From contig CALXVS010000006.1 of NCBI GenBank assembly GCA_944392145.1, positions 1 through 59,185 of the forward strand: a DNA stretch of 59,185 bases, in the 5' to 3' direction. A program made the translations under genes and the position numbers. The notes below the pieces were generated by a model. It had not been told where the DNA came from. It worked only from the letters and a program-made list of their open reading frames with translations, and searched no databases. Every line of letters starts with the position of its first letter. Position 1 is the first letter of the stretch. Positions 936 through 49,683 of this stretch are shown here, piece after piece. This stretch comes from an uncultured Alphaproteobacteria bacterium (GTDB taxonomy: Bacteria; Pseudomonadota; Alphaproteobacteria; CAAHEQ01; UBA3637).

Positions 936-3900
936 ATGAACTTTATTTTATCCAAGGCAAAACAATTATTGGCATCGTTAAAAACACAAGAGCTAGAAAC
1001 AGCTCCTGCAGTTAAGCGCACACCAGTTTCGCCGCAACAAAAGGATAAATCAAAGCAAGCAGAAATTGTTGAACTGAGAAAGAGAAATATTTGGTCTGGA
1101 AAAGAGTGTGCATTACTAATAGTTGCCTTGGAAGATATTTATTTTGGAAAAAAAGAAAGGGCCGATGTAATTGCTAAACTTTCGTCCAAGCTTCGTTCTA
1201 TGGGAAGGATTAACGGAGCAAATGTTGGTGACCTGTATCGAAATGAAGCTGGTATTGCATTACAGATGCTAAAAATGGAGTTTTTACTCACAGAAGGTAA
1301 AAAAGGTCTGTCTGGAGCAAGCAAGGCTTTTGAACGAATATATGAACTCTATAAAACCGATATTGATGCGTTCAATAAAGAATTTAGTCTGGAATCAAAT
1401 GGTTTATTCGCACCTAAAAAAACAGAGCACGTAGAAAATCAATCTAAAAAGCCAGTTGTTGTAGTTATAAAAAAACGAAAGATGTTATCAACTCAAAACA
1501 ATATGGCTGATAACGAAAATAATAAAGTCAATGATCAAAGAGTATCTTCTGAGACTCAAAGCACTGATTCAGAGGAAAAATGGAAATCTCTTGATGGAAT
1601 TATTGCGAATTATTTAACCACACCAGAGCCTGAAATTAAATCGGAAGAACCAATAAAAGAGGAACAAAGTTACGCTGTAGAACTTGGTGGCATTTTATCA
1701 TCAATGAGTAATGAACTTGATGATTTTTATAACAAATTTTATGTTGGAGGGAAAAAACAATATATTATCACTAGACGCATGATGTCGGCGCAACCTGAAT
1801 CTCTTGTATCAATTGCTCGCCATTTCAATGTGCTTGAGAGCGAAATAGCAGATATCGAAAAATCACTCTACAGCAGGATTAAAGGAATCCTCGAAGCTTA
1901 TAAAGAGAAAATAAAAAGTCTATTTGAACAATATAAACACCCTCTTGAATGCAATAGCACTGGATGTTTTGACTGGAGAAAGTATTATGTACTTTTGAAT
2001 AACTTGTCATCATTTACAGAATTCTTTGTTGATATAAATTCAAATAAGCTTATAAAAGTCCAAAAATTAGGAGCAATCAATCCAGTTGTAGCGCGTGACG
2101 GTGATTCATCCAAATTAGAGAAACAACAAGAATTGCAAGAAATAGCACCATCTAATCAGGCATCAATTACAGGAAGTAAAGCGGTGGCGTTTGATGTTGG
2201 ACAATATTTCGAAGAAGTTCATGGGTGGAGTAGTTTATATAGTTCCGTATTCAATCTTATGATAAAAAAATATAAACAGCTGAAGCCTTATCCTGATACT
2301 ATAGTTGTATCATATACAAAAGGTACAAAAAAAGGTCGCTATGTCAAGTTGATTAATGGGTTACTTCTGAATGTGAATTATAGCGCAGTGGCTGTTATGC
2401 AACGTATTAGTGAGCTTTTAGATTGCTATGGGATTACACCTGATCAATGCACTATTTATTTGGAAAATAATCAAGGACAAACAGCAAAAATTAAACTCTC
2501 TAATGGTTCTAATGAACCAGCCTTTAATGTTTTTGAAGCGACCGACACTCAAAAATCTGATGCTACTGTTAAGTATTCTGATTTATCGCAAAAAACACAT
2601 ACTGTATTGTGTGAAAAGTACCAAAAAGGCTTCCGGCTTGATTCACACCTTGAAAAAGAGCGTTTCAAATTATTTTTTGAACAAATTCATTCTGAAAAAA
2701 TACCTGAAGAAATATCAGAAAAATTACTAGATCAGCTGATTTTGAAAAACGGGATAGTTTATAATGATCGTGTTTACATAGCAGAAAATATGTTGGATGA
2801 GAATACGAAAGCGGATCTATTTGCATTTATCAGTCAAAGTTTTGATCATGGCCACAACACAATTTATTACACAGCGTTATTTGAAGAGTTTTCAGATAAA
2901 TTTTTAACACAGAGTATATTTGATCCTGATATTTTAAGAGAATATTTAAAATATGAAAACACAGGTAAATATTATGTGTTTAAAGAATATTTATCAAAGG
3001 ATAGGTCTGTGAACCAAAGCATTTCAGATGAAATCATTCAATTGCTTGTTGATCGCTCTGAACCGTTTTTCCAAGATGAATTGTCTGCAATGCTTCCGCA
3101 TATTGATAAGAACAAATTAATAAAAGAACTCCGCTCTTCTTCCGAATTTATAAGTAATGGAAAAGAACAATACTTCTTGGCAAGAAACTTTAACATAACT
3201 AACGATGAAATTGAGACGGTTAAGAAGCTTATTTCAGATTTATTAGATGCCAGCAGTACTCATTTTATTACGGCCGCTGAAGTAATGGAAATTATTCATA
3301 AAAAAGTACCGGAAATTTTCGAGAATAATGGTTTTATCTCTGAATTAGGAGTAAGGAATGCTTTGGCTTCAATTTTAGGCGATAGCTTCAGTTTCAATAG
3401 CAATGTAATAAGTGGCAAGGATACAAACCTAAATCTGAACGATATTTTTGAAGATTTTGCGAAAAACACTTCAAGTTTTTCGTTGGCAGAATTAAAAAAT
3501 CTTGCAAGTGAATTTTCTGCCCCGATTTATTTTGATGCCATAAATAAATATGCTATAAGAATTAGCAAGGATGAGTTTATTGGAAAAGATAAAATTGATT
3601 TCAATTTCAAAGAGATTGATCATGCAATTTCACTCTTTTGCCAAGCCGGCTATACGCCTATTCAGGCAGTGAATACTTTTGCTTCATTCCCTGATGTTGG
3701 CTATAAATGGAATACATTTTTATTAGAATCATACTTACAAAATTACAGCCCGGCATTCAGACTTTTTCAGGCATCTGCTTGTGAAACAAAGAGTGTTGGT
3801 GCAATAGTTAAAAAGACCAGTGCCTATACGAGTTTTGATGATATTCTCGTGGATGCAGTAGCTAAATCAAGATGTCAATTGCAAAAAGATACTATTTTAC

Positions 3901-3998
3901 AGTTCTTATGTGATTATGGTTATATTGTACGAAGAACGTATTCATCAATTGATAACATAATAGAAAGGGCTTCACAAAAAAGGAATTCGAAAGGATAA
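936..3998 (+). CDS. large protein of unknown function in BREX type 4 operon
   Basis: I do not recognise this 1020-residue protein. Residues about 48-150 (IWSGKECALLIVALEDIYF, later YRNEAGIALQM) resemble a domain seen attached to HNH and other restriction proteins, possibly DNA-binding. A charged linker covers about 155-245. Residues about 277-322 (RRMMSAQPESLVSIARHFNV, then SEIADIEKSLYSRIK) look like the region-4 helix-turn-helix of sigma factors. The C-terminal half is alpha-helical with patterns that suggest repeated winged-helix units. There are no obvious membrane segments. AGGGG lies before the ATG, and the next gene starts 4 bases after the stop. Its position directly before brxP implies a role in the same defence system, perhaps DNA recognition. 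Confidence 0.75.
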   Translation: MNFILSKAKQLLASLKTQELETAPAVKRTPVSPQQKDKSKQAEIVELRKRNIWSGKECALLIVALEDIYFGKKERADVIAKLSSKLRSMGRINGANVGDLYRNEAGIALQMLKMEFLLTEGKKGLSGASKAFERIYELYKTDIDAFNKEFSLESNGLFAPKKTEHVENQSKKPVVVVIKKRKMLSTQNNMADNENNKVNDQRVSSETQSTDSEEKWKSLDGIIANYLTTPEPEIKSEEPIKEEQSYAVELGGILSSMSNELDDFYNKFYVGGKKQYIITRRMMSAQPESLVSIARHFNVLESEIADIEKSLYSRIKGILEAYKEKIKSLFEQYKHPLECNSTGCFDWRKYYVLLNNLSSFTEFFVDINSNKLIKVQKLGAINPVVARDGDSSKLEKQQELQEIAPSNQASITGSKAVAFDVGQYFEEVHGWSSLYSSVFNLMIKKYKQLKPYPDTIVVSYTKGTKKGRYVKLINGLLLNVNYSAVAVMQRISELLDCYGITPDQCTIYLENNQGQTAKIKLSNGSNEPAFNVFEATDTQKSDATVKYSDLSQKTHTVLCEKYQKGFRLDSHLEKERFKLFFEQIHSEKIPEEISEKLLDQLILKNGIVYNDRVYIAENMLDENTKADLFAFISQSFDHGHNTIYYTALFEEFSDKFLTQSIFDPDILREYLKYENTGKYYVFKEYLSKDRSVNQSISDEIIQLLVDRSEPFFQDELSAMLPHIDKNKLIKELRSSSEFISNGKEQYFLARNFNITNDEIETVKKLISDLLDASSTHFITAAEVMEIIHKKVPEIFENNGFISELGVRNALASILGDSFSFNSNVISGKDTNLNLNDIFEDFAKNTSSFSLAELKNLASEFSAPIYFDAINKYAIRISKDEFIGKDKIDFNFKEIDHAISLFCQAGYTPIQAVNTFASFPDVGYKWNTFLLESYLQNYSPAFRLFQASACETKSVGAIVKKTSAYTSFDDILVDAVAKSRCQLQKDTILQFLCDYGYIVRRTYSSIDNIIERASQKRNSKG

Positions 3999-4001
3999 TT
4001 G

Positions 4002-6413
4002 ATGTATTCATATACTTGGGACACAGAAACTGGCGGACTTTTATTAAATACTTCTCCTTTGCAATTTAGCAAAGAGCCAAGACCTGTGTACGCAAAAGAA
4101 TTAGACATACTCGGTTTTAATAAGTACTGGGCGTATGATCCAAACAGTAATGCACCGTATATGTGGGCTGAATCCAATACATATATTTATAAAGGGCGTG
4201 TCGTTGCTCGAACAAAAGGCGGTAGTCTTTATACTCGTCCAGAGATCATCTTGGAAGGTGAACCGGAAGAACCAGGAAAGAAACTTGAGCCCGTTAATAT
4301 TGAGCGTATGGTTGAAAAGAACCAAGAAATACTTGATACCCTCACTCAGGAAACGATAAAAAAAATCTATAATAATTATATAAATTATAGAAATAAAGTT
4401 GATGTTTTTTATGTAGCATTTAGCGGTGGTAAAGATAGCGTTGTAGCATTGGATCTTGTACAGAGAGCATTACCCCATAATGACTTCAAGGTTATTTTTG
4501 GCGATACAGGAATGGAATTTCCTGATACTTATAACGTTGTTGAAAAGATATCAAAGTTTTGTGCTGACAACAACATCGAATTCCTGCGCGCCAAGTCAAA
4601 ACTTATGCCAGAAAACACCTGGAAGGCGTTTGGTCCACCTGCTGTAACAAACAGATGGTGCTGTAGCGTTCATAAAACATCGCCTCAAATTATGTTGCTT
4701 CAATTGAAAACACACATCCAAGGGTTTACTGGAATGGCATTCACAGGCGTTCGCGGAGATGAAAGTGTTTCAAGAAGTGAATATGATGACATTAGTTTTG
4801 GTCAAAAGCATAAAGGACAGTACAGTTGCCACCCGATATTAGAGTGGAATACTGCAGAGCTATTTCTTTACATATACAAAAACCATTTGATTTTGAATGA
4901 ATCCTATCTGAAAGGTAACAGCCGCGCGGGATGCTTAGTTTGTCCTATGTCATCTGGAAAACATGAGTTTATGAAAAACCAATGCTATCCGGCTGAAATG
5001 GAAAAGTTTATAGAAAAAATACGAGCTACAAGCGGAAAATCTTCTTTTTCAGAAGGTGAAATGACGAAATTTATAGAGGATGGAAATTGGAAAACACGCA
5101 GAAGTGGCCGCGAGCTTAATTTTGGATCCGATAAGCATATTATTGAACGTGTAGATGGTAACACAGTCATAACGGTATTAAAATATAATACTCGCTGGAA
5201 AGAATGGGCAAAAACCATTGGTAAATTTATAGTTATTTCTGACGATAAATATTTAATCGATTTCAACGATTTCACATATGAGGTTAATTTAAAGTACGAC
5301 AATGATAAAGCTGTTTTTACATTCCCCAATTGTGGTACCTCAAAATCTGATGTAAAATTCTTATCGCTATTCAAAAGCGTTATAATTAAGAGTATTTATT
5401 GCGTTAATTGTGGTGTATGCGTAGCTGAATGCACCAATGGCTGTATTGATATGTCAGACGGCCAATTAAAAATATCTGACGATTGTAAACATTGTTATCA
5501 GTGCCATGAGGTTCACGAGCATTGTTTGCGATATAATTCTATTAGAAACAAAATAAACATGGAGAAAAAAATGAAAGGCCTAGATAGATATTTCAGTTTT
5601 GGAATTCGTAAAAGTTGGATTGATTATTACTTCAAGGATGAGGGCTTGGAGGAGTTTTGGGACACAGATGGGCATGGAGCCGTTCCAAACAAGAAGAAAG
5701 ATGCCTTTCTTAATTTCTTAAAAGATGCAGACATGGTTATTGCATCAAAGGGCGATGCCGGCAACAAATATACGAAATTTAAACCTTCTAATTTTTCTTG
5801 CATTCTGTTTGGCTTGGGATCAGATAACGAAAGTGCTTGGGCATTAATGCTGTCCAATCTCGTGTATACTTCGGAATTTAATTGGTTCATAAAAAATCTA
5901 CCATTAAATGAAAATATGAACTTGGATCGTGTAAAATATCTCTTAGAAGATGTTATGGAAGGAGATACTAAAGGATTAGGAAAACGCAATATTTGTGATG
6001 CTCTTAAAGTTTTCATTACAAAAACTCCATTCTCAAAAATAGGCCTTGGGATTGGGGATTATACAGAAAAAGCATCTTCATCAGGAAATGAAAAAATAAC
6101 TTTGAATTCATTTTGTCGGACAGCCTGGGAGAATCCGGATCCGAAAGTAGTTTTATATTCTCTCTATAAATTTGCCGAGAAATGTGGAAATTATTATCAA
6201 TTTACTCTCTCTCGTCTTTTAGATCATACGATTGAAAGTGATGGAATAAGCCCCACAGAAATTTTTGGTTTAGATAGAGAAACAATGGAAAAAATTTTGA
6301 ATGGATTGTCTGTAAATTACCCAGATTTCATCTCGGCATCTTTTACGCTCGATCTTGATAATATAACTCTTAAAAGTGATAAAACATCAGAAGATGTGTT
6401 ACAATTGTTCTAA
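4002..6413 (+). CDS. brxP: BrxP: PAPS-reductase-family protein with ferredoxin-like domain
   Basis: This 803-residue protein carries the PP-loop SGGKDS (about residues 141-146) of the PAPS reductase/DndC family, which activates a substrate by adenylation for sulfur transfer. FGDTGMEFPDT follows, then the pair of cysteines in NRWCCS (about 220-221) and CLVC (about 311-314). Around 467-508 is a ferredoxin-like cluster, CVNCGVCVAEC and then CKHCYQC, which could bind one or two 4Fe-4S centres. I chose the ATG at 4002 over the TTG at 3999 because AAAGGA (3990-3995) is then well spaced. brxP is the marker gene of type 4 BREX. With a cysteine desulfurase in the operon, sulfur modification of DNA is a reasonable inference. 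Confidence 0.88.
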   Translation: MYSYTWDTETGGLLLNTSPLQFSKEPRPVYAKELDILGFNKYWAYDPNSNAPYMWAESNTYIYKGRVVARTKGGSLYTRPEIILEGEPEEPGKKLEPVNIERMVEKNQEILDTLTQETIKKIYNNYINYRNKVDVFYVAFSGGKDSVVALDLVQRALPHNDFKVIFGDTGMEFPDTYNVVEKISKFCADNNIEFLRAKSKLMPENTWKAFGPPAVTNRWCCSVHKTSPQIMLLQLKTHIQGFTGMAFTGVRGDESVSRSEYDDISFGQKHKGQYSCHPILEWNTAELFLYIYKNHLILNESYLKGNSRAGCLVCPMSSGKHEFMKNQCYPAEMEKFIEKIRATSGKSSFSEGEMTKFIEDGNWKTRRSGRELNFGSDKHIIERVDGNTVITVLKYNTRWKEWAKTIGKFIVISDDKYLIDFNDFTYEVNLKYDNDKAVFTFPNCGTSKSDVKFLSLFKSVIIKSIYCVNCGVCVAECTNGCIDMSDGQLKISDDCKHCYQCHEVHEHCLRYNSIRNKINMEKKMKGLDRYFSFGIRKSWIDYYFKDEGLEEFWDTDGHGAVPNKKKDAFLNFLKDADMVIASKGDAGNKYTKFKPSNFSCILFGLGSDNESAWALMLSNLVYTSEFNWFIKNLPLNENMNLDRVKYLLEDVMEGDTKGLGKRNICDALKVFITKTPFSKIGLGIGDYTEKASSSGNEKITLNSFCRTAWENPDPKVVLYSLYKFAEKCGNYYQFTLSRLLDHTIESDGISPTEIFGLDRETMEKILNGLSVNYPDFISASFTLDLDNITLKSDKTSEDVLQLF

Positions 6414-6424: not shown

Positions 6425-9400
6425 ATGTTACAAAAATACCGCGAATACTTTAATATTGACCCAGACTTTTTTGCTCAAGTAAATGAGGCCGTTATCGAAA
6501 CTCAGCCAAATATTTGGCAAAAATACTATCCACATGCCACATTTGTGAAGCTTATTAAAGACACAGTCTCCGTTTTATCCAGACAGCAAAAATTGTCAAT
6601 ATGGGTTGAGGGGGCATATGGAACAGGTAAATCTTATGCTGTTTTAACTTTGAAGAAATTACTTGATGCTAATGAAAAGGATACGAAGGCATATTTCGAA
6701 AAATATAACTTGGATAATGATTTACTGAATAAGTTCCAAGGAGAAAAGAATAGCGGTAAAATTTTGACAGTACACAGATATGGATCGGCAAGTATTCGCG
6801 GCGATAACGATCTAGTTTTAGCTATTCAAGAAAGTATCGAAAAAGCATTAAATAGTGAGGGAATCGAAAATCAAGGACCTAATACCTTGAAAAACGCAAT
6901 CATTAAATGGCTTTCTGATACTGATAATAAGCACTTTTTTAATGCTCTTATTACCGGAAGCTATTCAAAATTGTTTGGTGGTGATACCGTTGATATAATC
7001 ATTAATAAGTTGCAGACATATACAGACGATGCTCTGCAAACGCTTATGGATCAGATTTTTAAAGTTGCAAAGGAACGTCAAATAAATGCATTTACATTGA
7101 CAACTACAGATTTGTGCAATTGGATTAAAGAAATTATAAAAGCCAATGGATTAAAAGCGATTGTTTTTATTTGGGATGAATTCACTGAGTATTTCAATAA
7201 TAACCTTCGTGGCTTAACTGGTTTTCAAGAAATTGCTGAAATATCTGCAACAGATCCTTTCTATTTAATGATTGTAACTCATAAAAGTGCGGCTCTATTT
7301 AGCGATGCAGATAAGGATAAAAGAAAAATTCTTGATAGATTTATAAGTCCTACCTGTATGATCCAGTTGCCTGAAAATATTGCTTTCCAACTCATGGGAG
7401 CGGCAATGGAAAAAAATCAGGACCCAAGTGTTTTAGCAGATTGGAATGCTACAGTTACGGACCTTTATGATAGAACACGCGATTCACGTAAAATTATCAA
7501 AGATATCGTTAAAATCAGTGATGATGAACTGATGAAGATTTTACCTATCCATCCTTACACAGCACTCTTGCTGAAACATATTTCATCAGGTTTTGATTCA
7601 AACCAACGGAGTATGTTTGATTTTATTAAGAACGATAGAGGTGAAGAAATAAAAGGATTCCAGTGGTTTATTGACAACTATGGTCCATTGGATGCAAATC
7701 CTTTGTTGACTGTGGATATGCTTTGGGATTTCTTCTATGAAAAAGGTCGTGCATCACTATCAACAGATATTCGAACCATTTTGGACTGTTATGCAAGGGC
7801 TGAAACTAAACAGCTCAGTTCAGATGAGAAGCGTGTGTTAAAAGCTGTATTACTTTTACAGGCTATTTCACAGAAAGTGGGCGGATCTGTTGAATTTTTC
7901 GTTCCAAACGATAAAAATATCAACAATGCATTTGAAGGAACAGATATTGAACGTGAAGCTGCCCGTATTGCGGCAAAATTAGAACGTGACAAAATTATTT
8001 ATAAAAAGTCGTTGGGCGGTGGAGAGTTCCAGTATTCTGCATTAACAGGTGGTGTTGATACGGGAAAAATTGAAGAGATAAAAGAACAATTAAAGGATCG
8101 TCCAACAGCAACACTTATTCAAGAAGGAAGTCTCTCCAGTACACTTAATCTGCCAAAATCATTAGCTCTGCGCTATTCTATTTCCTATGCGAGCATTTCA
8201 GATTTTGATACAGTAATCAAGAGATTGAGAGCTGAAGAAGATAAATATCTGAACAAGCTCTGTGCTGTTGTAACTCTTGCAAAGGACGATAACGAAGCCG
8301 CTACGCTTAATAAAAAGATTAAGGATGCTGTCAGCGATGGCAGTTACAAGATGATCTTTATTGATGCAACAACAACACCGATGGGGCGCGATGCAATTGA
8401 ACAGTATTGCGAAAATAAGGCGAATGCTCAATATCAAAATGGTAAAGATAATAATCAAGCTAGAACGTATGATACCTATGCGTTGCAGGTTCTCACGTCC
8501 TGGAGAGATAGAATTGCTAAAGGCGAGTTTTTAGTGTTTTCTCAAGACCTGCCGGATGGTAAGCGTTTCGCTTCAGCTGATGGTTTATATTCGTACCTAC
8601 AGGATGTAAATCTTCATAAGTTCCCATATTGCTTGGAACAATACACAGTAACGGATAGTATGTATCAATTATCTTCGCTCAAAATGGGTGCTGAATGTGG
8701 TGCAAAACAAGATACAATGGGTATTTTCAAATCAGCGAACCCAACAACAAAATTGGAAGAAGCATTAAAGGGAGCTTGGAAAGTAAACGATTATTGGAAA
8801 ACAGCTCCAAACCTCATGCCTATTTCCAAGATAAAAATTGCTGTAGAAGAAAAAATCGTGCACTCTTTTAAGGAAGAAGGCCGTGTATCTGTGACGGATA
8901 TATATAGCATGCTTAAGCAGGAACCATATGGTTTCTTGCCATGCAACTTAACAGCTTTTGTATTGGGCTTTGTATTAAAAGAATATGTGGATGGTTCATA
9001 TACATGGAGTGATGGCCTAACAAATGATGCTTTCAATATAGCAAAACTAAAAGAGGTTATTGATGAAGTCATCAAATTAGATGTCACTCCAAATAACCGC
9101 TTTAAGGACAAATATATTGTAACGATGACAGCTGAAGAAAAGGCATTTAATGAGGCAACTGCTTCCGCCTTTTCAATCCCGGCATCATTCTGCACGTCTA
9201 TTGAACAAACACGTGAACGCATTCGCGGTAAAATGAAAGAGCTTTCTTTCCCTGTTTGGGTATTACAGTATATTCTGGACAATGAGCCGCTAACTACTGA
9301 TAAGCAGGTAATTTCAACACTTATTGAAAATTATAGTTACATTGCAAATAATAATAATGCTCATGTAAATAAAACGGATAGTGATATTGCTCTTGAAATT

Positions 9401-10618
9401 GGAAAGCTCTGCATAAAAAATCCTAAAGCAGTGAATGATTTACAAAGCTTGTTTACAAAAGAAAAGTGTACAAGCGGTATGATTGCGTATTTGGATCAAT
9501 TTAAGGATGGTGAACTTCCAAGATTGGCCAACGAGATCAAGGATAATCATTTCTATGTTAATGCCTTGAGAAATAAGTTTGATGCAGATGCCGCAAATTG
9601 GGTATGGAACAAGGAAACAGCCAATCAAAAGATTGATGAAATGATTGTGGAATATAAAATTATTGCCGAGAGCAACAAAATCATGTCATCACAAAATACG
9701 AATTTTGCAAAAGCGTTGGCTGATTGGTCTGAAAAATGCAACTATATTCGTATTTCATATCCGATGTGTAAGGAAAAAATAGGAGATGCAACTGAGCTAT
9801 TTGATATTCTTTATGAATTGAGAAGAAATGGCGGTCACCTAGCTGAAGCACAAAAATCCAAGTTCTTAACGGCTCTCTCTAAATACGGAACTGAGTTTAG
9901 AACGTTCTTTGAAAATCAGTCATCATATTTCAAAGATGTTTGCGCATTTTACATTGATGGATTCGCTGATGATGAAATAAACGCGATCTTTGCGCAGCTT
10001 CCACTTGGATCCTTTAGCAAAGAGAAATCTGAGTATACTAGCATTGTCGCAAAAGTTGCTGAGGATTATAAAAACTCTCTTGGCTATTCTAAACTCAAAA
10101 AATTGTGGAAGGATAAAACAAAAACTACATCGCCAGCAGAATGGTCAGAGAAGTATAAAATGCCAATATTTGCCTTAATTGATGACGACGATATGCAAAG
10201 AGCTCATCAAGCCTTTGATGTGTTAAACAAGCCGCATCCTGACAACGAATCAGTTAAAAAGGCAATGGAATTCTTAGAAAATGGAAATTTCTATGACCGC
10301 CTAAACGATGAAGATAAACGGGATACAGCCTTCAAGAATACAATAATAAACGAATATTCTGTGATACTTCAAGATGTGGATGCTGTTAAAAATTATTTAT
10401 ACGAAAAAGTTGGAACAGAGCCATATTTGTGGCTTGGTATTCCGGAAGTGAAAAAGAAAATTCAACAGCTTGCAGAGGCTCAATATAACAAAAACGGTTA
10501 TGAAAAAGCCCTTGCAAAAATTGATAAGATGGATACTGAAGACGTAAAATCCTATATCAAGAAATTAATTAAAGATGATATGATTTTGGGTATTCAAATT
10601 ATTAAGAATAGTCATTAA
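6425..10618 (+). CDS. brxC: BrxC-like P-loop ATPase of BREX
   Basis: A 1397-residue ATPase with Walker A GAYGTGKS at about residues 63-70 and a Walker B-like strand IVFIWDEFTEYF near 245-256, matching the large BrxC/PglY ATPases (usually 1100-1400 residues) that are core to BREX. The remainder is long, helical and poorly conserved, as in the family. GGAG lies 7 bases before the ATG, and the gene follows brxP by 11 bases. In BREX the protein is needed for both modification and phage exclusion; its exact activity is not settled. Confidence 0.88.
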   Translation: MLQKYREYFNIDPDFFAQVNEAVIETQPNIWQKYYPHATFVKLIKDTVSVLSRQQKLSIWVEGAYGTGKSYAVLTLKKLLDANEKDTKAYFEKYNLDNDLLNKFQGEKNSGKILTVHRYGSASIRGDNDLVLAIQESIEKALNSEGIENQGPNTLKNAIIKWLSDTDNKHFFNALITGSYSKLFGGDTVDIIINKLQTYTDDALQTLMDQIFKVAKERQINAFTLTTTDLCNWIKEIIKANGLKAIVFIWDEFTEYFNNNLRGLTGFQEIAEISATDPFYLMIVTHKSAALFSDADKDKRKILDRFISPTCMIQLPENIAFQLMGAAMEKNQDPSVLADWNATVTDLYDRTRDSRKIIKDIVKISDDELMKILPIHPYTALLLKHISSGFDSNQRSMFDFIKNDRGEEIKGFQWFIDNYGPLDANPLLTVDMLWDFFYEKGRASLSTDIRTILDCYARAETKQLSSDEKRVLKAVLLLQAISQKVGGSVEFFVPNDKNINNAFEGTDIEREAARIAAKLERDKIIYKKSLGGGEFQYSALTGGVDTGKIEEIKEQLKDRPTATLIQEGSLSSTLNLPKSLALRYSISYASISDFDTVIKRLRAEEDKYLNKLCAVVTLAKDDNEAATLNKKIKDAVSDGSYKMIFIDATTTPMGRDAIEQYCENKANAQYQNGKDNNQARTYDTYALQVLTSWRDRIAKGEFLVFSQDLPDGKRFASADGLYSYLQDVNLHKFPYCLEQYTVTDSMYQLSSLKMGAECGAKQDTMGIFKSANPTTKLEEALKGAWKVNDYWKTAPNLMPISKIKIAVEEKIVHSFKEEGRVSVTDIYSMLKQEPYGFLPCNLTAFVLGFVLKEYVDGSYTWSDGLTNDAFNIAKLKEVIDEVIKLDVTPNNRFKDKYIVTMTAEEKAFNEATASAFSIPASFCTSIEQTRERIRGKMKELSFPVWVLQYILDNEPLTTDKQVISTLIENYSYIANNNNAHVNKTDSDIALEIGKLCIKNPKAVNDLQSLFTKEKCTSGMIAYLDQFKDGELPRLANEIKDNHFYVNALRNKFDADAANWVWNKETANQKIDEMIVEYKIIAESNKIMSSQNTNFAKALADWSEKCNYIRISYPMCKEKIGDATELFDILYELRRNGGHLAEAQKSKFLTALSKYGTEFRTFFENQSSYFKDVCAFYIDGFADDEINAIFAQLPLGSFSKEKSEYTSIVAKVAEDYKNSLGYSKLKKLWKDKTKTTSPAEWSEKYKMPIFALIDDDDMQRAHQAFDVLNKPHPDNESVKKAMEFLENGNFYDRLNDEDKRDTAFKNTIINEYSVILQDVDAVKNYLYEKVGTEPYLWLGIPEVKKKIQQLAEAQYNKNGYEKALAKIDKMDTEDVKSYIKKLIKDDMILGIQIIKNSH

Positions 10619-10631: not shown

Positions 10632-12917
10632 GTGAAACTGGATCTTGCTTTTACAAAAATTGATAAATATTTACAATCAAAAAAGTCCCAACCAATAATT
10701 GTGGACATACAGAATGGTATTGATTTTGAGAAATTAAAAGAACGGTTTCCCAGTTCGTTTTATTCCTATAAAAATGCAGGAAGTTACTGCAAAAAAGACT
10801 CTTATTGTCGCTTGGATAATTTAAAAAATGACCTGGCAAAATCAGAAGATGATTTATTCATAACGGGTCTTTCAACTTTTCTAAGATTGCAAGGAAAGGA
10901 AGAATTGCGGTCACAGCTTCGTGTTCTTCTTGATTTGTCTACTGAGAGCCATGTAGTGATAATAACATATCAGTGTTCTAAGTATCTTGATTTTCATGAT
11001 AAGCGTCTTTACGATGCTAATCGGATAATAATTGTTGAAGGCGAACCTGATTATATTCCCGCATTAACTCTTGTATCGCCTAAAATTTCGCTCGATAAAG
11101 TGTATTCGTACACTGGAATTAATAGTCTTGATCAAGCCGTAGAATTTAATCCAAGCGACAAAGTATTCCTTTCCACCAAGCATACTGAGTCAGATTTTCC
11201 AAAATCACTCCTGCAAATTTCAACCGTTTCAAGCGCATATGATATAATTAAAACGTACGAAGATAGCATATCTCTTGTTAATGATGATTTCGGAACAGTT
11301 GATGAGTGGTCTGAATTATTAAAACGCCTTCAAGAAGCTGATGGATGGGAAACGCTTATTTCAAATGAATTTGGGGGTATTCAAAATTTACCATTTAGAA
11401 TAGATGCTTATGCAGGTTTTGATGAGTTTAAGAAGTGGTTATATGTTCTTATGCTGAAATTATACAGCTCAGAAATCGTAACAGGATACCTTTCCAAAAT
11501 ACTACAAAGGGTTTCGTCGTACAAAGATTTTGTTTCTGCGCTCTTTCAAACCATCTTAAATTTTGATCATACAGACTCAGAATTTAGTAGTTTGTACCTA
11601 GAGAGAAAATGTATATTGAAAAATTTTGCTAAAGAAACAGAAGAAATATGCGAATACTGTAAATTGGTATCAGCTAAAGGGAAAAGCGGCCTTTTCTATT
11701 TGACTGACAATACCAACCTTGAAAAACAAACTGTAATCGGATTATTGGGGCGATATGCTTCTGAACTTAACGCAAATGATATTAATTCAATCCTGAAAGT
11801 AGTTTATCCGGATTTATACTCATATATGGGAGAATATAATTTTGAACACCCGCTTTTGAAGGGATATTTCCAAGCATATAAGTATCAAAAGCTTTTCAAC
11901 CACATTTCTTCGGATTTTGCAAAAGTAGTTGAAGAACAAGCTATCAAACGTGAGTATAACTCTATTTTGCGTCCACGAGTTTCATATCTCGAAAAAATTG
12001 ATACGAAAAATACCATTGTTTATTTCGTGGATGCACTGGGAGTTGAGTATTTGAGCTTTATCATTGCACAGTGTAATAGTAATAATTTGTTTGCGAACGT
12101 GACAGTTTGTCGTTCTGAATTACCTTCTATAACCTGTATGAATAAGGAGTTTGTTGATGTATTTAGTTCAGCAGGCTGTAAAATCATTGATATAAAAGAC
12201 CTTGATGAATTAAAACACCACGGAACGAATGATTTTGATTATCAGATTACGAAAGAACCAATACACTTAATTGAAGAATTAAGCATCATTGCTAATGTTC
12301 TAGAAAAAATCCGTACAAATATCGCTAGTGGAAAATGTGAAAAGGCAATTATAATCTCTGATCACGGAGCTAGTAGATTAGCTGTTATTAACGAGACAGA
12401 AAATAAATATGAGATGTCCGAAAAAGGTGAACATTCAGGTAGATGTTGCCCTGTTTCAGATATTGATGAAAAACCTGAGTTTGCAACAGAGGAGAATGGC
12501 TACTGGGTATTGGCTAATTATGACCGGTTTAAGGGTGGAAGAAAGGCCAATGTGGAAGTGCATGGTGGTGCGGCATTGGAAGAAGTTTGCGTGCCTATAA
12601 TTGAAATCTCACCGAAAAATGAAAAGATTGATGTTCGTATACTGGATTCTTACAAGAATATAACGGTAAGCTTTAGAAAATCTGCTCTTATTAAATTCTT
12701 CATAAACAAGAAGCTGAACAATCTAAAAATTAAAATTGAAGGTAAGTATTATGATGCTCAGCCAACTGCAGAGGAGTTTGTGTATCAGGTAAATATGCCG
12801 GATATCAGGAAGGCAAAGCATTATATATTTGACGTTTATGCATCGGAAAATCTGATTGCATCCGGTTTGCAATTTAATGTCAAAAGTGAAGTAATAGTTG
12901 AAAAAGATCTATTTTAG
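10632..12917 (+). CDS. pglZ: PglZ-domain protein of BREX
   Basis: A 761-residue PglZ protein. The C-terminal alkaline-phosphatase-like domain starts near residue 464 (IVYFVDALGVEYLSFI) and includes IIISDHGASRLAV around 570-583, the metal-binding motifs of the superfamily. A later H-G-G cluster (VHGGAALEEVCVP) fits the same fold. The start is GTG at 10632 with GGAGAG at 10621-10626. PglZ is the hallmark gene of all BREX types and is thought to be a phosphodiesterase-like or regulatory enzyme. It lies in the expected order brxP-brxC-pglZ-brxL. Confidence 0.92.
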   Translation: MKLDLAFTKIDKYLQSKKSQPIIVDIQNGIDFEKLKERFPSSFYSYKNAGSYCKKDSYCRLDNLKNDLAKSEDDLFITGLSTFLRLQGKEELRSQLRVLLDLSTESHVVIITYQCSKYLDFHDKRLYDANRIIIVEGEPDYIPALTLVSPKISLDKVYSYTGINSLDQAVEFNPSDKVFLSTKHTESDFPKSLLQISTVSSAYDIIKTYEDSISLVNDDFGTVDEWSELLKRLQEADGWETLISNEFGGIQNLPFRIDAYAGFDEFKKWLYVLMLKLYSSEIVTGYLSKILQRVSSYKDFVSALFQTILNFDHTDSEFSSLYLERKCILKNFAKETEEICEYCKLVSAKGKSGLFYLTDNTNLEKQTVIGLLGRYASELNANDINSILKVVYPDLYSYMGEYNFEHPLLKGYFQAYKYQKLFNHISSDFAKVVEEQAIKREYNSILRPRVSYLEKIDTKNTIVYFVDALGVEYLSFIIAQCNSNNLFANVTVCRSELPSITCMNKEFVDVFSSAGCKIIDIKDLDELKHHGTNDFDYQITKEPIHLIEELSIIANVLEKIRTNIASGKCEKAIIISDHGASRLAVINETENKYEMSEKGEHSGRCCPVSDIDEKPEFATEENGYWVLANYDRFKGGRKANVEVHGGAALEEVCVPIIEISPKNEKIDVRILDSYKNITVSFRKSALIKFFINKKLNNLKIKIEGKYYDAQPTAEEFVYQVNMPDIRKAKHYIFDVYASENLIASGLQFNVKSEVIVEKDLF

Positions 12918-12929
12918 AAAGGAATGTCC

Positions 12930-14375
12930 ATGTCAATAGATGAAAAATTGAAAGAATATTTTGATGAAATGGTTGTTTTTAAGGATCTTAAAAAGAGCAA
13001 TTTTTTTAGTGCCTTGAGTTTGCCTTCCTTCTTGCGCGACTGGCTGTTAAAGAAATTCGAAGATTCTCAAGGTGAATTTAATGTTGAGGATATCTCTGCC
13101 TTTATAAAGACCTACATCCCATCAAAGAACGAATGGACAAGCATAAAAAATAGGATTGTTTATGAAAATGAGCATGTCAAATTTTTAACTAAAATATCAA
13201 TTGATATTAGTATTAAAACCCAAGAAATAAGCTTTTCTCTTCCTGATTTTGGTTTAACAACAAGGGAAACCATCATTGAACCAAATGTATGGGAGAACTG
13301 TAAGAATGAGCTTGTTAACGGGAAAGATACGTGGGGTGTTGTTGAGCTTGGTTATAAGTTTCCAGATGAGGAGAAAAAAATTCCTGGTAAAATTAAACTA
13401 ATTAGTTTTACAAATTTCTGTCCTTATACGGTAGATTTGGAGTATTTCAAGGATGTCCGCAAAGAATTTACTGTTCAAGAATGGCTGGATGTGATATTGG
13501 GTGCAATCGATTACAATGCCAGCGGATACGAAAATGAGGATCAAAAACGGTCAATGATCACTCGATTGTTGCCATTCGTAGAAAAAAGGATTAATTTGAT
13601 AGAACTGGCTCCAAAAGGAACCGGAAAATCATATTTGTTCGGTGGAGTCAGCAGATTTGGTTACCTTGCGTCAGGCGTTATGTCTCGTGCTAAGTTGTTT
13701 TTTGATCTAAGTCGCAGAACAAAAGGACTTGTTTACAACTATGATTATGTCGCTTTTGATGAAATTCAAAAGCTTGCATTCGTGAATTCCGATGAGATTA
13801 GTTCAACTTTGAAAGGCTACATGGAACAAGGAACAATCTCTTTTGGAGGCCATGAGGGATCTGCGGATGCCGGAATTATACTTTTGGGCAATATCATGCA
13901 AGAAAATATGGATGAATACAAAAATATGTTTGTCAATCTTCCTACTGTTTTCAAGGAAAGTGCTTTACTAGATCGTTTCCATGGTTTCATTCGTGGATGG
14001 GATATCCCGCGTATGCATGATGATCTTAAAATCTCCGGGTGGGCATTGAATTCTGAATATTTCTGTACAATGCTACACTTGCTTAGAGAAGATGCAAGTT
14101 ATCGTGCAATAGTCGACCAAATTCTTGAAGTGCCTGAGCGAGCAGATACCCGTGACACAGAAGCGATAAAGAGAATAGCGACTGGATACCTCAAGTTGCT
14201 TTTCCCACACGTTCGCTCGCCAAAGGATATCAATGCTCTTGAATTTACTAAGTATTGTTTACGTCCTGCTACGAAGATGCGTCAGATAATTAAAATGCAA
14301 TTGGGTATTTTGGATACAGAGTATAAAGGAAAAGATGTACCGACATTGACTGTTAGGAGTGAATATGGCAACTAA
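12930..14375 (+). CDS. brxL: BrxL-like AAA+ ATPase, short form
   Basis: This 481-residue protein has the BrxL ATPase core: ELAPKGTGKSYLFGGVSRFG around residues 229-248, then VAFDEIQKL as Walker B and ILLGNI as a sensor strand. I prefer the ATG at 12930 because AAAGGA (12918-12923) is then 6 bases away; the ATG at 12924 would sit directly on it. Classical BrxL proteins run to about 680 residues and carry a C-terminal Lon-like domain. Here the protein ends shortly after the AAA+ part and I see no Ser-Lys protease dyad. BrxL proteins are thought to act as DNA-binding rings in exclusion. Confidence 0.87.
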   Translation: MSIDEKLKEYFDEMVVFKDLKKSNFFSALSLPSFLRDWLLKKFEDSQGEFNVEDISAFIKTYIPSKNEWTSIKNRIVYENEHVKFLTKISIDISIKTQEISFSLPDFGLTTRETIIEPNVWENCKNELVNGKDTWGVVELGYKFPDEEKKIPGKIKLISFTNFCPYTVDLEYFKDVRKEFTVQEWLDVILGAIDYNASGYENEDQKRSMITRLLPFVEKRINLIELAPKGTGKSYLFGGVSRFGYLASGVMSRAKLFFDLSRRTKGLVYNYDYVAFDEIQKLAFVNSDEISSTLKGYMEQGTISFGGHEGSADAGIILLGNIMQENMDEYKNMFVNLPTVFKESALLDRFHGFIRGWDIPRMHDDLKISGWALNSEYFCTMLHLLREDASYRAIVDQILEVPERADTRDTEAIKRIATGYLKLLFPHVRSPKDINALEFTKYCLRPATKMRQIIKMQLGILDTEYKGKDVPTLTVRSEYGN

Positions 14376-14568
14376 CTGTGTGGCCTGTGGAAAAGAAAAC
14401 CTTGATAAGGATACAATCGGCATTAATAAAAAATTACTTGGTTTAGATATTGCAAATTTTTATTGCTTAGATTGCCTTGCGGAGTATCTTGATTGTACCG
14501 TTCAGGAACTTTTGGATAAAATCGAGGAATTTAAAGAGGAAGGTTGTAAACTGTTTGAGGGAAAGTAA
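14365..14568 (+). CDS. 4-cysteine zinc-ribbon-like mini-protein in BREX operon
   Basis: A 67-residue protein with CVAC (residues 5-8) and CLDC (34-37), the spacing of a small zinc ribbon, plus two further cysteines. AGGAG at 14355-14359 precedes the ATG at 14365, which overlaps the end of brxL by 11 bases, so the two are translationally coupled. I do not recognise the family. Its position between brxL and the cysteine desulfurase suggests a partner in sulfur handling or DNA binding. Confidence 0.75.
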   Translation: MATNCVACGKENLDKDTIGINKKLLGLDIANFYCLDCLAEYLDCTVQELLDKIEEFKEEGCKLFEGK

Positions 14569-14569
14569 A

Positions 14570-15718
14570 ATGGTAAATAAAAAATTTATATATGCAGACC
14601 ATGCTGCTACTTCAGCCTTGGATCCTGAAGCTTTTGAAGCTATGAAGGAGTTCCTGGTGGACAATTTTGCAAATCCATCCCAACCATATTCATTTGCAAG
14701 AAATGCAAAAAAAGCAATTCAAAATGCTAGAAAAACAATAGCAGAATGCATTAATGCTGATGAAGACGAAATATTTTTTACTTCATGTGGGACAGAAAGT
14801 AACAATTGGGTCATTAAAAGCATATTATACCAAAATCAAAAAAAGGGAATTATAACCTCGAACATCGAGCATCATGCAATTTTAGAAACTTGTAAAAGGA
14901 TTGAAAAATTTAAAGATTATTACTCAACTTATATTCAAGTAAATTCCAATGGACTTGTGAATCCTGAGGCACTAAAGAAACAATTCAACATATATAATGA
15001 CGTTTATCTTACATCAATAATGTACGCAAACAATGAATACGGTGCGATTCAGCCAATCAAGGAATTAGCCTCTATTAGTCATCAAAATGGATCATTATTC
15101 CACACTGATGCTGTACAGGCTGTTGGACATGTTGCACTTGATGTTAAAGATTTGAATGTGGATATGCTTTCTTCGTCTGCGCATAAATTTAATGGGCCAA
15201 AAGGAATTGGTTTTCTCTATGTCAAAAAAGGCCTAGATATTCCTTCATTAATTAATGGAGGATCTCAAGAAAAAGGTAAACGCGCTGGGACGGAAAATGT
15301 TGCTTCAATAGTTGGTATGTCAACAGCTCTCAAGAATAACTGCAATAAATTAAAAGAAAATGCTCAACACATCATAGAGCTTGAAGAAGTTTTCCTCAGA
15401 AAATTAAAAGAAAGCAATCTTGACTTTATATGCAATACAAATGTTAACCATATTCCTGGAAATATAAGCCTTTCATTCAAAGGAATATCAGGAGAAACGT
15501 TAATGCATAGGTTGGATCTTAAAGGAATTATGGTATCCACAGGATCTGCCTGTGACAGTGTAAAAAATCAAACATCTCACGTAATAAAGGCTCTTGGAGT
15601 TCCAGAAGACTATGCCTACGGTACAATCCGTATATCTTTAGGAAAGGAAAATACGGAAGACGAAATTGAAGAAATTTTTATTGCGATCTATGAAATTGTT
15701 AAATCTCTTACTGCTTAG
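14570..15718 (+). CDS. cysteine desulfurase (NifS/IscS/DndA family)
   Basis: A PLP enzyme that takes sulfur from cysteine and holds it as a persulfide. The 382 residues fit the family. Motifs are YADHAATSAL at the N-terminus, SNIEHHAILE, HTDAVQAVGH, the PLP lysine in SAHKFNGPKG (about residue 204), and the active-site cysteine in STGSACDS (about 325). The ATG at 14570 begins one base after the preceding stop, with GAGGGAAAG upstream. Being last in the BREX operon, it probably feeds sulfur to BrxP as DndA does to DndC. A separate housekeeping IscS is expected elsewhere; this copy looks dedicated. Confidence 0.9.
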   Translation: MVNKKFIYADHAATSALDPEAFEAMKEFLVDNFANPSQPYSFARNAKKAIQNARKTIAECINADEDEIFFTSCGTESNNWVIKSILYQNQKKGIITSNIEHHAILETCKRIEKFKDYYSTYIQVNSNGLVNPEALKKQFNIYNDVYLTSIMYANNEYGAIQPIKELASISHQNGSLFHTDAVQAVGHVALDVKDLNVDMLSSSAHKFNGPKGIGFLYVKKGLDIPSLINGGSQEKGKRAGTENVASIVGMSTALKNNCNKLKENAQHIIELEEVFLRKLKESNLDFICNTNVNHIPGNISLSFKGISGETLMHRLDLKGIMVSTGSACDSVKNQTSHVIKALGVPEDYAYGTIRISLGKENTEDEIEEIFIAIYEIVKSLTA

Positions 15719-15934: not shown

Positions 15935-16870
15935 TTACTTTCTTTTATCAAAATCTTCCGGTTTTATAACCTTTACATGCTTACCCCATGTGTAAAGGTG
16001 CCAATCCATTTCAAGTGCGCCGCCGGCCCGGAATTTAACTGTTAAGGTGCCGTCCGGATTGCGGATTGCTTCTTGCTTCGGATGAAATGTATATTGAGCC
16101 GCAGAATCAGCAACTTCAGCATCAAACAGCCACTCAACATCAAATGGCTTTTCTTGGTAAACACCAAAGGCTTGTTCGCTGAACTCCTTAAGAGAGAAAT
16201 GAGGATCACGCTTAAAGTACGTATTCAATACCTCAATTTCTTTTATTTTATTTAAATTAAAATGACATATCTTGCGCTTTGTTGGATCCCAGGCAATTAA
16301 ATAGTGCTTATTTCCATACAAAAAGCCATAAGGGAACAGCTCGCGCCAGTCCTTGTTGTGCGCAGAATCGTATTTTATTTTAATGCGGTTGCACGCAATA
16401 ATTGCGTACCGGAGCTGTTTTAAGTGTTCTGTATTGATGATAATCTTTGGTCCGGGTCGGAAAGCATATCCCTCAGCTTCCAATAGTGCTTCGGCATCCG
16501 GTTCTATCCTATTTGTGGCATCTTTACCGATGATGGCTTTTATTTTATGTAAAACTGTATCAACGTAATGCGCATCTATCATGCTTTTTGATGATAAAAG
16601 TTTGGATGCATTTTGTAGGGCATGGATCTCTTCCATAGAAAAATTGACCATTTCGCGGCCGGTCCCCTTAGGTAAATACCAACGTTTTGTATTATAACGA
16701 CCGTTAATTTCTTTTAATTGATGGTATTTATCGGCGATAGAATCTTTCATACGAACCGCTGTCCGGAGAGAGACATCATACTTTTCCATGATGTCTTTAA
16801 GAGAAACGCCGTCATCTGTGTCCTGCATCCACAAAATCAGGTCATTGAGCGTCTGCGTTTTTTTATACAT
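15935..16870 (-). CDS. WYL-domain transcriptional regulator
   Basis: A 311-residue regulator: an N-terminal helix-turn-helix (residues about 1-65, with GVSLKDIMEKYDVSLRTAVR) and a WYL-type sensor domain from about 140 (RIKIKYDSAHNKDWRELFPYG...NKHYLIAWD) with a C-terminal extension. WYL proteins such as BrxR and CapW control defence islands, often sensing nucleic acid or nucleotides. GGAG precedes the ATG. It faces the BREX operon tail-to-tail and has its own consensus promoter. It is therefore a candidate regulator of the BREX locus or of the small gene at 17029. Confidence 0.85.
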   Translation of the reverse strand: MYKKTQTLNDLILWMQDTDDGVSLKDIMEKYDVSLRTAVRMKDSIADKYHQLKEINGRYNTKRWYLPKGTGREMVNFSMEEIHALQNASKLLSSKSMIDAHYVDTVLHKIKAIIGKDATNRIEPDAEALLEAEGYAFRPGPKIIINTEHLKQLRYAIIACNRIKIKYDSAHNKDWRELFPYGFLYGNKHYLIAWDPTKRKICHFNLNKIKEIEVLNTYFKRDPHFSLKEFSEQAFGVYQEKPFDVEWLFDAEVADSAAQYTFHPKQEAIRNPDGTLTVKFRAGGALEMDWHLYTWGKHVKVIKPEDFDKRK

Positions 16871-44523: not shown

Positions 44524-46209
44524 TTACTTAATATCAATTTTTGGGAGTCCTAATTTGATATTTGAAGAGTTTAATCTTTCAACAAACTCTTTCTTGAAGT
44601 TATTTATTATTGTTTCATCTAGAGATTTGCAATAGGCAGTAACACACGCATTAAAAAGTTTTTTATCTAATTGTGCCCATGCTTTACACGATTTTGTATC
44701 AGCAAGACGTACAGTCGAAATATTAGGCGGATTAATTCTGCACTCCTGAACTAATTCATTCTTTATAGAGTCTTGTAATTTATCTATTTTTTCAAACAAT
44801 GGATCTTTTGCTTCTAATTGTAATAAATAAATGATAATTCTTTTTTCAAGCGGATACAAATCAGGCTCAGGTAACCGCATAAAAAGTTTTTTGTCTCTTA
44901 TACGAACAACCTCTTGATCTGGAACATCACCATCTAAAACGACAAAAGCTTTTGTTTTATACAAAATAGTTGGAATGTTTTTACACATGCTGATTAAAGT
45001 CTTTTTTGATGTTCCAGGATTATCAGATTCATCTAAATTATGCTGTATTTCAATAAATTTACAAATTTTTGTTCCTAAAATAGATCTTAACATATGTTTA
45101 GCTACATCATCTTCACAATATACTGTTGTTTTGTACTGTTGAGAAACTTCTTGAGGAGATTTAAGTGTTAGTTCTTTATAAGCAAGGGCATAATCTGGGT
45201 TTTTTATAATTTCATAATTTTTATCACTTCCAGAGTGGGAAAAACTTATAAAATTTATCATTATATTATGTTTTTCAAGTTCTTCCTTCATATTTAAATA
45301 TAAATATTGGATAATATGAAGGGAATGAGTTGTAAAAACAATTTGTATATTGTGTTGTTTCGACCATTTGTTTAAATAACTGATTAAATTCACTTGAGCT
45401 GAGGGGTGTAAACTGGATTCAATTTCATCAATGCAAATAAGCCCCGTCTTGCGTGTCCTTTGAAATGATAATAACGTATTGAATATTGAACCTAAATTAT
45501 CTTCCCCTGAAGAAATTGAATTAAAATCATAAGTAGCGCTAGCTCCAGATGGTCCAAAAGTTTTTTTCTTATTATTATCAGAAACTGCTATATAGTCATT
45601 TTTATCCGTTTGTAAAAAAATATAACCATAAAATTTTTTTAAATCTTCTTTTTCTTCTGCATTTAACTCAATATTTTTTTGTTCTTCCGCTTTTGTTTCG
45701 ATAATAGGTCTTAATCTACTTAAACTGAGAAAAGATGTATTAAAAATAAAATTGCCATCTCCTTTTTCGTGACCAGACACTACTATTCGATGTCGCCCAC
45801 CACGTTCATCAATAGTAACTTTTTCTTTTATTTTTTCATTTTTTTTTGATGTTAAAAGTATGTTATAATTGTAATCATCATCATATTTTAAAGATAACCT
45901 AAATACTTCACTTAAAGGTGTCTTAAGTTGATTTCCAAAACAATCGACCGAGTCACTTGTAAATGGATGAGCAATTAACCCCATAAGTGTTGTTTTCATT
46001 GTTCCGTTTTTTCCGGATATAATCGTCAAATTTTTTCCTAAAGTAAGGACTCGATTCTTTAATGTTCTAAAATTCTCTATCTCTATTGCATCAATTTTTT
46101 GAACAGCAATATCTTTATTGGAAGTATATCCATATTCACTTCTGCTTTTGAATTCTTCCGGAGATAATTCATCATAAGCTTTAATATTTATTACTTCTTT
46201 TTTAGTCAT
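44524..46209 (-). CDS. OLD-like ATPase with TOPRIM domain
   Basis: A 561-residue protein. The ABC/SMC-type ATPase has Walker A SGKNGTMKTT (about 66-75), signature SSGEDN, Walker B GLICIDEIESSLHP and the H-loop TTHS. It is followed by a TOPRIM nuclease-like domain with VYCEDD and VVLDGD. OLD-family proteins (also GajA and similar) are defence nucleases. AAAGGA precedes the ATG at 46209; the TTG at 46212 is the alternative. It sits after hsdR in the type I R-M operon with a 52-base gap. Confidence 0.85.
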   Translation of the reverse strand: MTKKEVINIKAYDELSPEEFKSRSEYGYTSNKDIAVQKIDAIEIENFRTLKNRVLTLGKNLTIISGKNGTMKTTLMGLIAHPFTSDSVDCFGNQLKTPLSEVFRLSLKYDDDYNYNILLTSKKNEKIKEKVTIDERGGRHRIVVSGHEKGDGNFIFNTSFLSLSRLRPIIETKAEEQKNIELNAEEKEDLKKFYGYIFLQTDKNDYIAVSDNNKKKTFGPSGASATYDFNSISSGEDNLGSIFNTLLSFQRTRKTGLICIDEIESSLHPSAQVNLISYLNKWSKQHNIQIVFTTHSLHIIQYLYLNMKEELEKHNIMINFISFSHSGSDKNYEIIKNPDYALAYKELTLKSPQEVSQQYKTTVYCEDDVAKHMLRSILGTKICKFIEIQHNLDESDNPGTSKKTLISMCKNIPTILYKTKAFVVLDGDVPDQEVVRIRDKKLFMRLPEPDLYPLEKRIIIYLLQLEAKDPLFEKIDKLQDSIKNELVQECRINPPNISTVRLADTKSCKAWAQLDKKLFNACVTAYCKSLDETIINNFKKEFVERLNSSNIKLGLPKIDIK

Positions 46210-46261
46210 CAAATAGTCCTTTCAACCCATTTTCACCAATGTGATATCATGTCGTATTTTT

Positions 46262-48556: not shown

Positions 48557-49683
48557 CACAGTTCTCCTCTAAATGCTTTTTGCAATATAGATTGTTTTAA
48601 TTCATCACATTCTTTAATTTTCTGGGTATATATTGCTTCAAGTTGTTTGGTTTGTTCTTTTAGTGCATCAAGCTTTTCAACGATTTTTTGTTGCACCTCA
48701 ATGGTTGGCATTGAAAGCATAAAATCGGTTATCATTCCTACTCTTAAAAATTTAGTATTTGCACCTAACGACATTTTTTTCAACTCTGCTAACGCTTTGA
48801 ATAATTGAAAATAAAGATACCTATAATTTAATTTTGATTTATCAGGTATAGTTATTACATAAGTTCTTTGATAGGCATTAAATTTCCCTTTATAATGTTT
48901 AACATTAAAATCTCCAGATGCATTATTTCCTGCTAACAAAATTGCTTCACAGTCAAATGCAAAATTATTTATTCTTAAAGGCGTCCTAGAACAAGTAAAA
49001 AATGGATATCGACCGTTCTCAACAGCAGCATTAGAATTAAGTTTACCGGTTGTTATTTTAATATATTTCCCTAATTTATCTTTTTGCGCAACTATATTTT
49101 CTAAATATCCGTCAAACAGCTCTTTGGCATTAATAATGTTTTGCTCGGCATTGGCTTTAACCTTGTCTATATTAGCAAACAATTTTGTAGTTTTTTCTAC
49201 AATTGATTTTTGTTCTTGTATTGGAGGAACGGGAATACGCAGCATCCTAATGTCATTATTGTTCAGGTGTAAAATATTTACTCCCTTTGCGTACTGGGCT
49301 AATTGATGTTTGAGAGGAAAATTAATCATATATGACAAATACGAAGACAATAAAACATTATTTCTTGTCCTTATAATATTTATATCCCCGCTTATAATAA
49401 CCCCTTCTTTATCAAGTGCTCGTGCTATTGCAATTCCCATCGCGTCAGCTGTTGTTGTAGCAGGCACTAAAACATCACCTTCTAAAGATTTAATTTTACC
49501 CTCAACATTTGTTTTACGTAACACTTCTTGTATTATTGGCGTGTATAACGTATATAAATCGCCATAATGGATACACGGGAATTTTCCCATATTATTAAAA
49601 TCTTTTTTAGATATACCGCTTCCTCTTAAAAGCTGTACATCTCCATTTTTTTCCAATTCTGAAATCGAAACAATAGGGTACAT
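48556..49683 (-). CDS. hsdS: type I restriction enzyme, S (specificity) subunit
   Basis: A 375-residue HsdS with two target-recognition domains, each followed by a conserved helix region: IRMLRIPVPPIQEQKSIVEK (about 146-165) and LSMPTIEVQQKIVEKLDAL near the C-terminus. It sets the DNA sequence recognised by the complex. It starts right after the hsdM stop. The recognition site cannot be deduced. Confidence 0.93.
   Translation of the reverse strand: MYPIVSISELEKNGDVQLLRGSGISKKDFNNMGKFPCIHYGDLYTLYTPIIQEVLRKTNVEGKIKSLEGDVLVPATTTADAMGIAIARALDKEGVIISGDINIIRTRNNVLLSSYLSYMINFPLKHQLAQYAKGVNILHLNNNDIRMLRIPVPPIQEQKSIVEKTTKLFANIDKVKANAEQNIINAKELFDGYLENIVAQKDKLGKYIKITTGKLNSNAAVENGRYPFFTCSRTPLRINNFAFDCEAILLAGNNASGDFNVKHYKGKFNAYQRTYVITIPDKSKLNYRYLYFQLFKALAELKKMSLGANTKFLRVGMITDFMLSMPTIEVQQKIVEKLDALKEQTKQLEAIYTQKIKECDELKQSILQKAFRGEL

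Follow-up and report, generated by a model that had tools for sequence, protein, structure and literature searches.

The first gene of an intact BREX operon of type 4 (the phosphorothioate type) in an uncultured alphaproteobacterium belongs to a modular protein family, in which a constant C-terminal module is joined to N-terminal modules that are exchanged between bacteria. This gene, called gene X here, lies in a window of 59,185 nucleotides, the whole stretch of DNA that was analysed, from a metagenome-assembled genome (MAG) of 1.45 Mb. We propose that, in one branch of type 4 BREX, its product serves as the specificity subunit, an exchangeable part that recognizes the target, a reading whose chances we place just under even. 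The system itself is known BREX type 4; the novelty lies in component X and its modular exchange.

Gene X runs from ATG to TAA without interruption and encodes 1020 residues. The sequence AGGGG just 5' of its ATG is a plausible ribosome-binding sequence, and 3 nucleotides separate its end from the brxP ATG at 4002, a start fixed by the sequence MYSYT, which is conserved among relatives. The first-pass annotation had placed a protein of this length in a BREX operon, as the open reading frame and the neighbours identified with PADLOC and NCBIfam bear out. It had also held that the protein is not one of the named BREX proteins, in agreement with the lack of any match of note in Pfam, NCBIfam and PHROGs and of any PADLOC family that names it. 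The operon and the gene on its 3' side comprise the following features.

936 to 3998, plus strand: gene X, founding member of the modular family described here (open reading frame and homologues)
4002 to 6413, plus strand: BrxP, with a PAPS-reductase domain, a 4Fe-4S region and a C-terminal SspB-like (DUF4007-type) part (PADLOC BrxP, E 5e-235)
6425 to 10618, plus strand: BrxC ATPase (PADLOC, E 8e-292)
10632 to 12917, plus strand: PglZ of the BREX-4 type, pglZ-4 (NF033445, 469.8 bits against a cut-off of 140, E 1.9e-140)
12924 to 14375, plus strand: BrxL (TIGR02688, 402 bits, above the cut-off; PF13337 and PF20442; E 2e-120)
14477 to 15718, plus strand: cysteine desulfurase, NifS/DndA-like (family match; 56% identical to the desulfurase of locus L024)
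15935 to 16870, minus strand: WYL-domain regulator (family match)

From brxP to the desulfurase, the window matches BREX type 4 (brxPCZL) in both gene order and families, and the locus holds the components by which the type is recognized: a BrxP with a DUF4007-type part (its SspB match spans residues 694-793), a BREX-4 PglZ, BrxC and BrxL. In the text of a 2026 survey, the type 4 core is given as BrxP/DUF4007, BrxC, PglZ, BrxL and the desulfurase (PMC12839542); the window adds a first gene that goes unnamed in the core as described there and that is confined, in the present material, to one BrxP clade. In locus L024, a WYL protein likewise follows the desulfurase. The G+C content of the BREX operon is 33-37%, against about 40% for most of the following sequence, and BrxP was absent from all the others among 42 genomes searched in the order, so that the operon looks acquired.

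Other parts of the window carry genes related to DNA binding, defence and mobility. An HU-family DNA-binding protein with an N-terminal extension of about 60 residues is encoded just 5' of the operon, at the contig edge (1-456, plus strand). A second defence cluster, of type I restriction-modification (HsdM, HsdS, HsdR; 44524-51237, minus strand), lies 30 kb from the BREX operon, with an OLD/AAA_15-type ATPase flanking it 3'. A large serine recombinase (Resolvase, Recombinase and zinc ribbon; 53361-55067, minus strand) is followed 2-3 kb further on by tRNA-Ala and tRNA-Arg genes, possibly an island boundary of mobile DNA.

The family was reached through the neighbours of gene X, BrxP and then BrxL, and not through the window protein (P0001), which as a query retrieved only a near-identical MAG contig among genome contigs, nothing among plasmids or viral contigs, and no significant match in 398 Pseudomonadota genomes. 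The BrxP search led to locus L024 (MT835511.1), where a 975-residue protein, P0002, is encoded directly 5' of brxP; by blastp it matches P0001 at both ends (E 1e-33 at the C-terminus, 2e-7 at the N-terminus) and not in the middle. The BrxL alignment led to four complete type 4 loci among mis-binned contigs. A gene X relative stands 5' of brxP in every BrxL-scan locus with upstream sequence (four of four; E 3e-68 to 2e-100 with a C-terminal profile), and a scan with the C-terminal module yielded two more members. The family totals eight, the window protein and seven others, with lengths from 594 (L045) to 1449 residues, the start of the L046 gene being uncertain owing to adjoining insertion sequences. 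All eight genes are immediately upstream of brxP. Occurrence in other type 4 BREX loci had been suggested as a check in the first-pass annotation, and the seven further members supply it.

Two type 4 loci, L023 on a Methanosphaera plasmid and L025 of faecal origin, have no gene X relative in the sequence at hand, and the idea that gene X is universal in type 4 was rejected on that account; since the BrxL scan was seeded with X-bearing loci, the share of type 4 loci that carry X cannot be read from these counts. Gene X is unmentioned in the text of the 2026 survey (PMC12839542), and neither the gene nor its module exchange is described in the family libraries and texts searched, although it may have been noticed earlier.

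Contigs L024, L028-L032 and L041-L046, deposited as 'phage' or in IMG/VR, bear type 4 BREX operons. That of L024 adjoins chromosomal genes (pyruvate phosphate dikinase and an Era-like GTPase), and this contig is therefore probably host DNA mis-binned as viral. In one type 4 locus (L046:11408-14827 and L039:5825-7641) brxP is apparently broken by insertion sequences, gene X and brxC still being open. At the end of a phage-like contig, whose genes include DUF2800/DUF2815-like and SNF2-helicase-like ones, stands a PAPS-reductase gene of BrxP/SspD-like type (L022:10001-10756) that is 44% identical to the window BrxP and is possibly a phage-borne sulfur-modification gene.

Within the window protein, the following parts can be delimited, all on the plus strand.

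1074 to 1385, plus strand: head domain, residues 47-150, basic (pI 9.4) and helical (blastp, PADLOC HNH, AlphaFold2)
1386 to 1670, plus strand: linker, residues 151-245, acidic (pI 5.2), pLDDT under 50
1755 to 1898, plus strand: degenerate sigma-region-4.2-like segment, residues 274-321 (search matches and RpoH profile; low AlphaFold2 confidence)
2133 to 2504, plus strand: alpha/beta domain, residues 400-523, weakly common with L046 and, via L046, with L041
2571 to 3995, plus strand: C-terminal module, residues 546-1020, acidic, about six tandem winged helices (blastp, profile, AlphaFold2 and fold matches)
3015 to 3182, plus strand: best-defined winged helix, residues 694-749 (Z 9.5 to 1j75)

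The C-terminal module, about 460 residues long across the members, defines the family. AlphaFold2 models residues 546-1020 as about six helix-helix-helix-strand-strand units, with pLDDT mostly 75-92, and the module is accordingly predicted to be an array of tandem winged helices, in line with the repeated winged helices that the first-pass annotation had expected in the C-terminal half. Residues 694-749 superpose on the Z-alpha winged helix of 1j75 with a Z score of 9.5 and an rmsd of 1.2 A over 54 residues, and the array as a whole resembles that of SelB (Foldseek E 8e-4, Z 8.4), with further Foldseek matches to Dcc1/Ctf18 and UFL1. The predicted structure thus contains DNA-binding folds and the gene recurs in related loci, the reverse of the two outcomes that the earlier annotation had named as telling against its reading. 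Tandem winged helices are known in loaders and scaffolds such as those matched here, and L045, at 594 residues, is short and has few N-terminal modules; both facts agree with X being a general DNA clamp or loading scaffold that holds DNA non-specifically for processive action of BrxP and BrxC, the module differences amounting to drift. Every one of the eight C-terminal modules, however, is acidic, with net charges of -10 to -27, a property ill-suited to a bulk clamp. For this reason, together with the pattern of module replacement considered below, we think such a role quite unlikely.

The N-terminal parts differ from member to member. The head domain is common to the window protein, P0002 of L024, L041, L043 and L044 (blastp against homologues, E 7e-8 to 1e-12) and is modelled as five helices with a pLDDT of 79. 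That the N-terminal part resembles a domain of restriction proteins, as had been noticed at the outset, is upheld by the similarity of residues 47-150 to the N-termini of HNH nucleases: the window domain alone matches PADLOC HNH with E 0.003, the HNH protein of L008 aligns with it, sharing the signature W..E.. and FRN..G, and in the head alignment that includes L008 the best member reaches E 3e-12. The model gave no PDB match by fold search, nor did a PDB profile search, in which the ScoMcrA head was sought; the function of that head is unknown (PMC6224610). The occurrence of the domain in front of HNH nucleases would fit a hidden nuclease or other enzyme effector. Yet no HNH or other nuclease family was found by Pfam in any member; the window protein shares the signature of the nuclease heads, but the head is not succeeded by an HNH, SRA or sulfur-binding domain. 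The conserved part of the family is, moreover, a winged-helix array in which an active site is not evident. A nuclease function was rejected for want of any motif, and an enzymatic effector of any kind appears extremely improbable.

Other members carry other pieces. P0002 has two tyrosine-recombinase SAM-like domains (PF13102, E 1e-11), and profiles place such domains in L041, L043 and L044 as well; one suspected by eye in L045 received no support from the profile. The N-terminal part of L042 carries two RNA polymerase alpha-CTDs (PF03118, E 5e-27) and a sigma region 4 (PF04545, E 1e-9). The alpha/beta domain is seen by blastp between L046 and the window protein (E 7e-5) and between L041 and L046 (E 1.5e-9), and a profile built on the L041/L046 unit failed to detect the window protein. 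Basic N-termini, entertained as a family trait, are not supported by the pI values.

In the window protein the middle region is modelled poorly (pLDDT under 50) and contains the segment, at residues of about 277-322, that the first-pass annotation had taken for a sigma-factor -35-binding motif. Residues 275-321 align without gaps to region 4.2 of sigma-32. When P0001 was run against 398 genomes in an undirected search, it gave 18 weak matches other than itself, and six of these were sigma factors, aligned at residues of about 271-346. A profile built from the sigma factors so hit scores 19.6 bits, a circular figure as these were selected by the hits themselves. An RpoH profile for which 25 genomes were taken irrespective of P0001 scores 6.3 bits in the expected register, a value reached by one of 5000 shuffles of P0001; a smaller independent profile (the genome's own RpoH and RpoD with L042) gave no signal (-4.9 bits), and Pfam Sigma70_r4 was not reported in the protein. 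Given the circularity of the strongest score and the weak or missing signal from the independent profiles, the claim is limited to degenerate similarity, which is probably real. The recognition helix reads LESEIADIE where RpoH has SRERVRQIE, so that the -35-contacting residues of the RERVRQ type are lost; with the base- and backbone-contacting helix unconserved, binding of a -35 element by the window protein is unlikely. The similarity seen in the earlier annotation therefore stands, and its reading as a -35-binding motif was overstated. An intact sigma region 4 in the sister locus L042, whose BrxP is 64% identical, makes it plausible that the window segment decayed from such a module.

The presence in L042 of both promoter-reading modules of RNA polymerase raises the question of whether the alpha-CTD- and sigma-4-like parts engage the polymerase or promoters, either for regulation of the operon or as a means of locating transcribed DNA. 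MzaA of the MZA defence system, which is annotated in NCBIfam as a sigma-70 family protein, lends this some colour; MzaA and PglW of BREX type 2 are large defence proteins that weakly match the L042 sigma-4 or alpha-CTD-like stretches, though the X-type C-terminal module was not detected in them with PADLOC and NCBIfam. Clear polymerase-derived modules are, however, found only in L042, recombinase or head modules occupying five others, and, the degenerate stretch of the window protein apart, X proteins have no other sigma or alpha domains of the RpoH/RpoD and RNA polymerase alpha kind. The window protein, for its part, no longer has the recognition helix of sigma-4, and the locus already has a WYL regulator. 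A link to transcription, as the first-pass annotation had envisaged, is on this evidence very improbable.

Exchange of the N-terminal modules is most evident when they are compared with the rest of the operon. Identity to the window falls from BrxL (61-69%) through BrxP (44-64%), BrxC (35-56%) and PglZ (34-38%) to the C-terminal module of X (25-36%), while for the N-terminal parts blastp gives at best about 34%, confined to the head, and at the low end detects no match. In the BrxP tree, L042 is the sister of the window (97/96); the two loci are 64% identical in BrxP, 69% in BrxL and 53% in BrxC, with N-termini of X that are unrelated by blastp. Drift would not put alpha-CTDs and a sigma region 4 in place of the whole head-plus-middle region at 64% BrxP identity, a further argument against a non-specific clamp. 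In a tree with seven comparable X-linked BrxPs, those with X form one clade (100/100), with L023 and L025 as outgroups. The C-module tree has the same two main groups as the BrxP tree and differs in fine detail; as judged from these trees, the C-module and BrxP are inherited together as far as the two main groups are concerned. By sequence, then, the family presents exchangeable modules of DNA-reading types on a constant scaffold.

The arrangement of X, with a constant, co-inherited, acidic scaffold that is encoded beside the modification gene and bears sequence-reading modules open to exchange, is that of a specificity subunit, and it is on this basis that the role is proposed; a fixed scaffold whose DNA-binding pieces are swapped between bacteria probably directs the system to DNA sites. 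The position of all eight genes directly 5' of brxP and the nature of the exchanged pieces (recombinase SAM-like repeats, alpha-CTDs with sigma-4, and the HNH-type head) speak for it. Type 1 BREX owes its site specificity to the BrxX methyltransferase, whose binding to DNA sites is required for both methylation and defence (PMC11842806). Type 4, in the survey text, lacks a methyltransferase (PMC12839542) and hence its target domain, and a separate reader would fill this gap. The acidic C-terminal array would dock on the conserved core, most simply on BrxP; the variable N-terminal modules, by reading DNA, would determine the sites that BrxP and BrxC phosphorothioate. X would bring these proteins to the chosen sites, self sites being marked with sulfur and unmarked ones taken as foreign, and swapping of the N-terminal modules would lead to new specificities.

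Several observations weigh against a specificity role. The brxPCZL genes alone are reported to make phosphorothioate DNA (PMC11931770) and L023 and L025 lack X, which means that the core can function in its absence. BrxA/DUF4007 has been proposed in the survey text as a DNA-scanning unit (PMC12839542) and BrxP itself bears a DUF4007-type part, the scanning function of which X may refine or replace in one branch. The recognition helix of the window sigma-4 segment is also degenerate. That the core may modify DNA without gene X would also suit a sensor of invaders, in which X detects phage DNA by the state of its structure, replication or transcription and then gives BrxC, PglZ and BrxL licence to act, the modification sites not being set by X. 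Rapid divergence and module turnover (25-44% identity in the C-module against 61-77% in BrxL) fit an arms race with phages, and the head domain is common to HNH nucleases. Gene X pairs, however, with the modification gene brxP and not with genes of the effector side, and recombinase and promoter-reading modules read sequence rather than damage or structure; a sensor of this kind is, in our estimate, unlikely.

The proposed specificity subunit has its nearest analogy in HsdS of type I systems and the target-recognition domain of BrxX, in which exchangeable DNA-reading modules likewise precede a constant partner. No sequence relation to these was found, the modules of X being of the recombinase-SAM, alpha-CTD/sigma-4 and head types, and those systems methylate DNA whereas the type 4 BREX of X phosphorothioates it. 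It is conceivable, if on balance rather doubtful, that a swappable specificity protein re-using promoter-reading and recombinase modules sets the sites of a phosphorothioate defence, the HsdS-like principle having been invented independently outside methylation. For the way in which type 4 BREX chooses its phosphorothioate sites, X is a direct and testable candidate. Should X read these sites, phosphorothioate specificity would become predictable, or could be re-targeted, through domain exchange. For one branch, current BREX catalogues lack a component that is conserved there.
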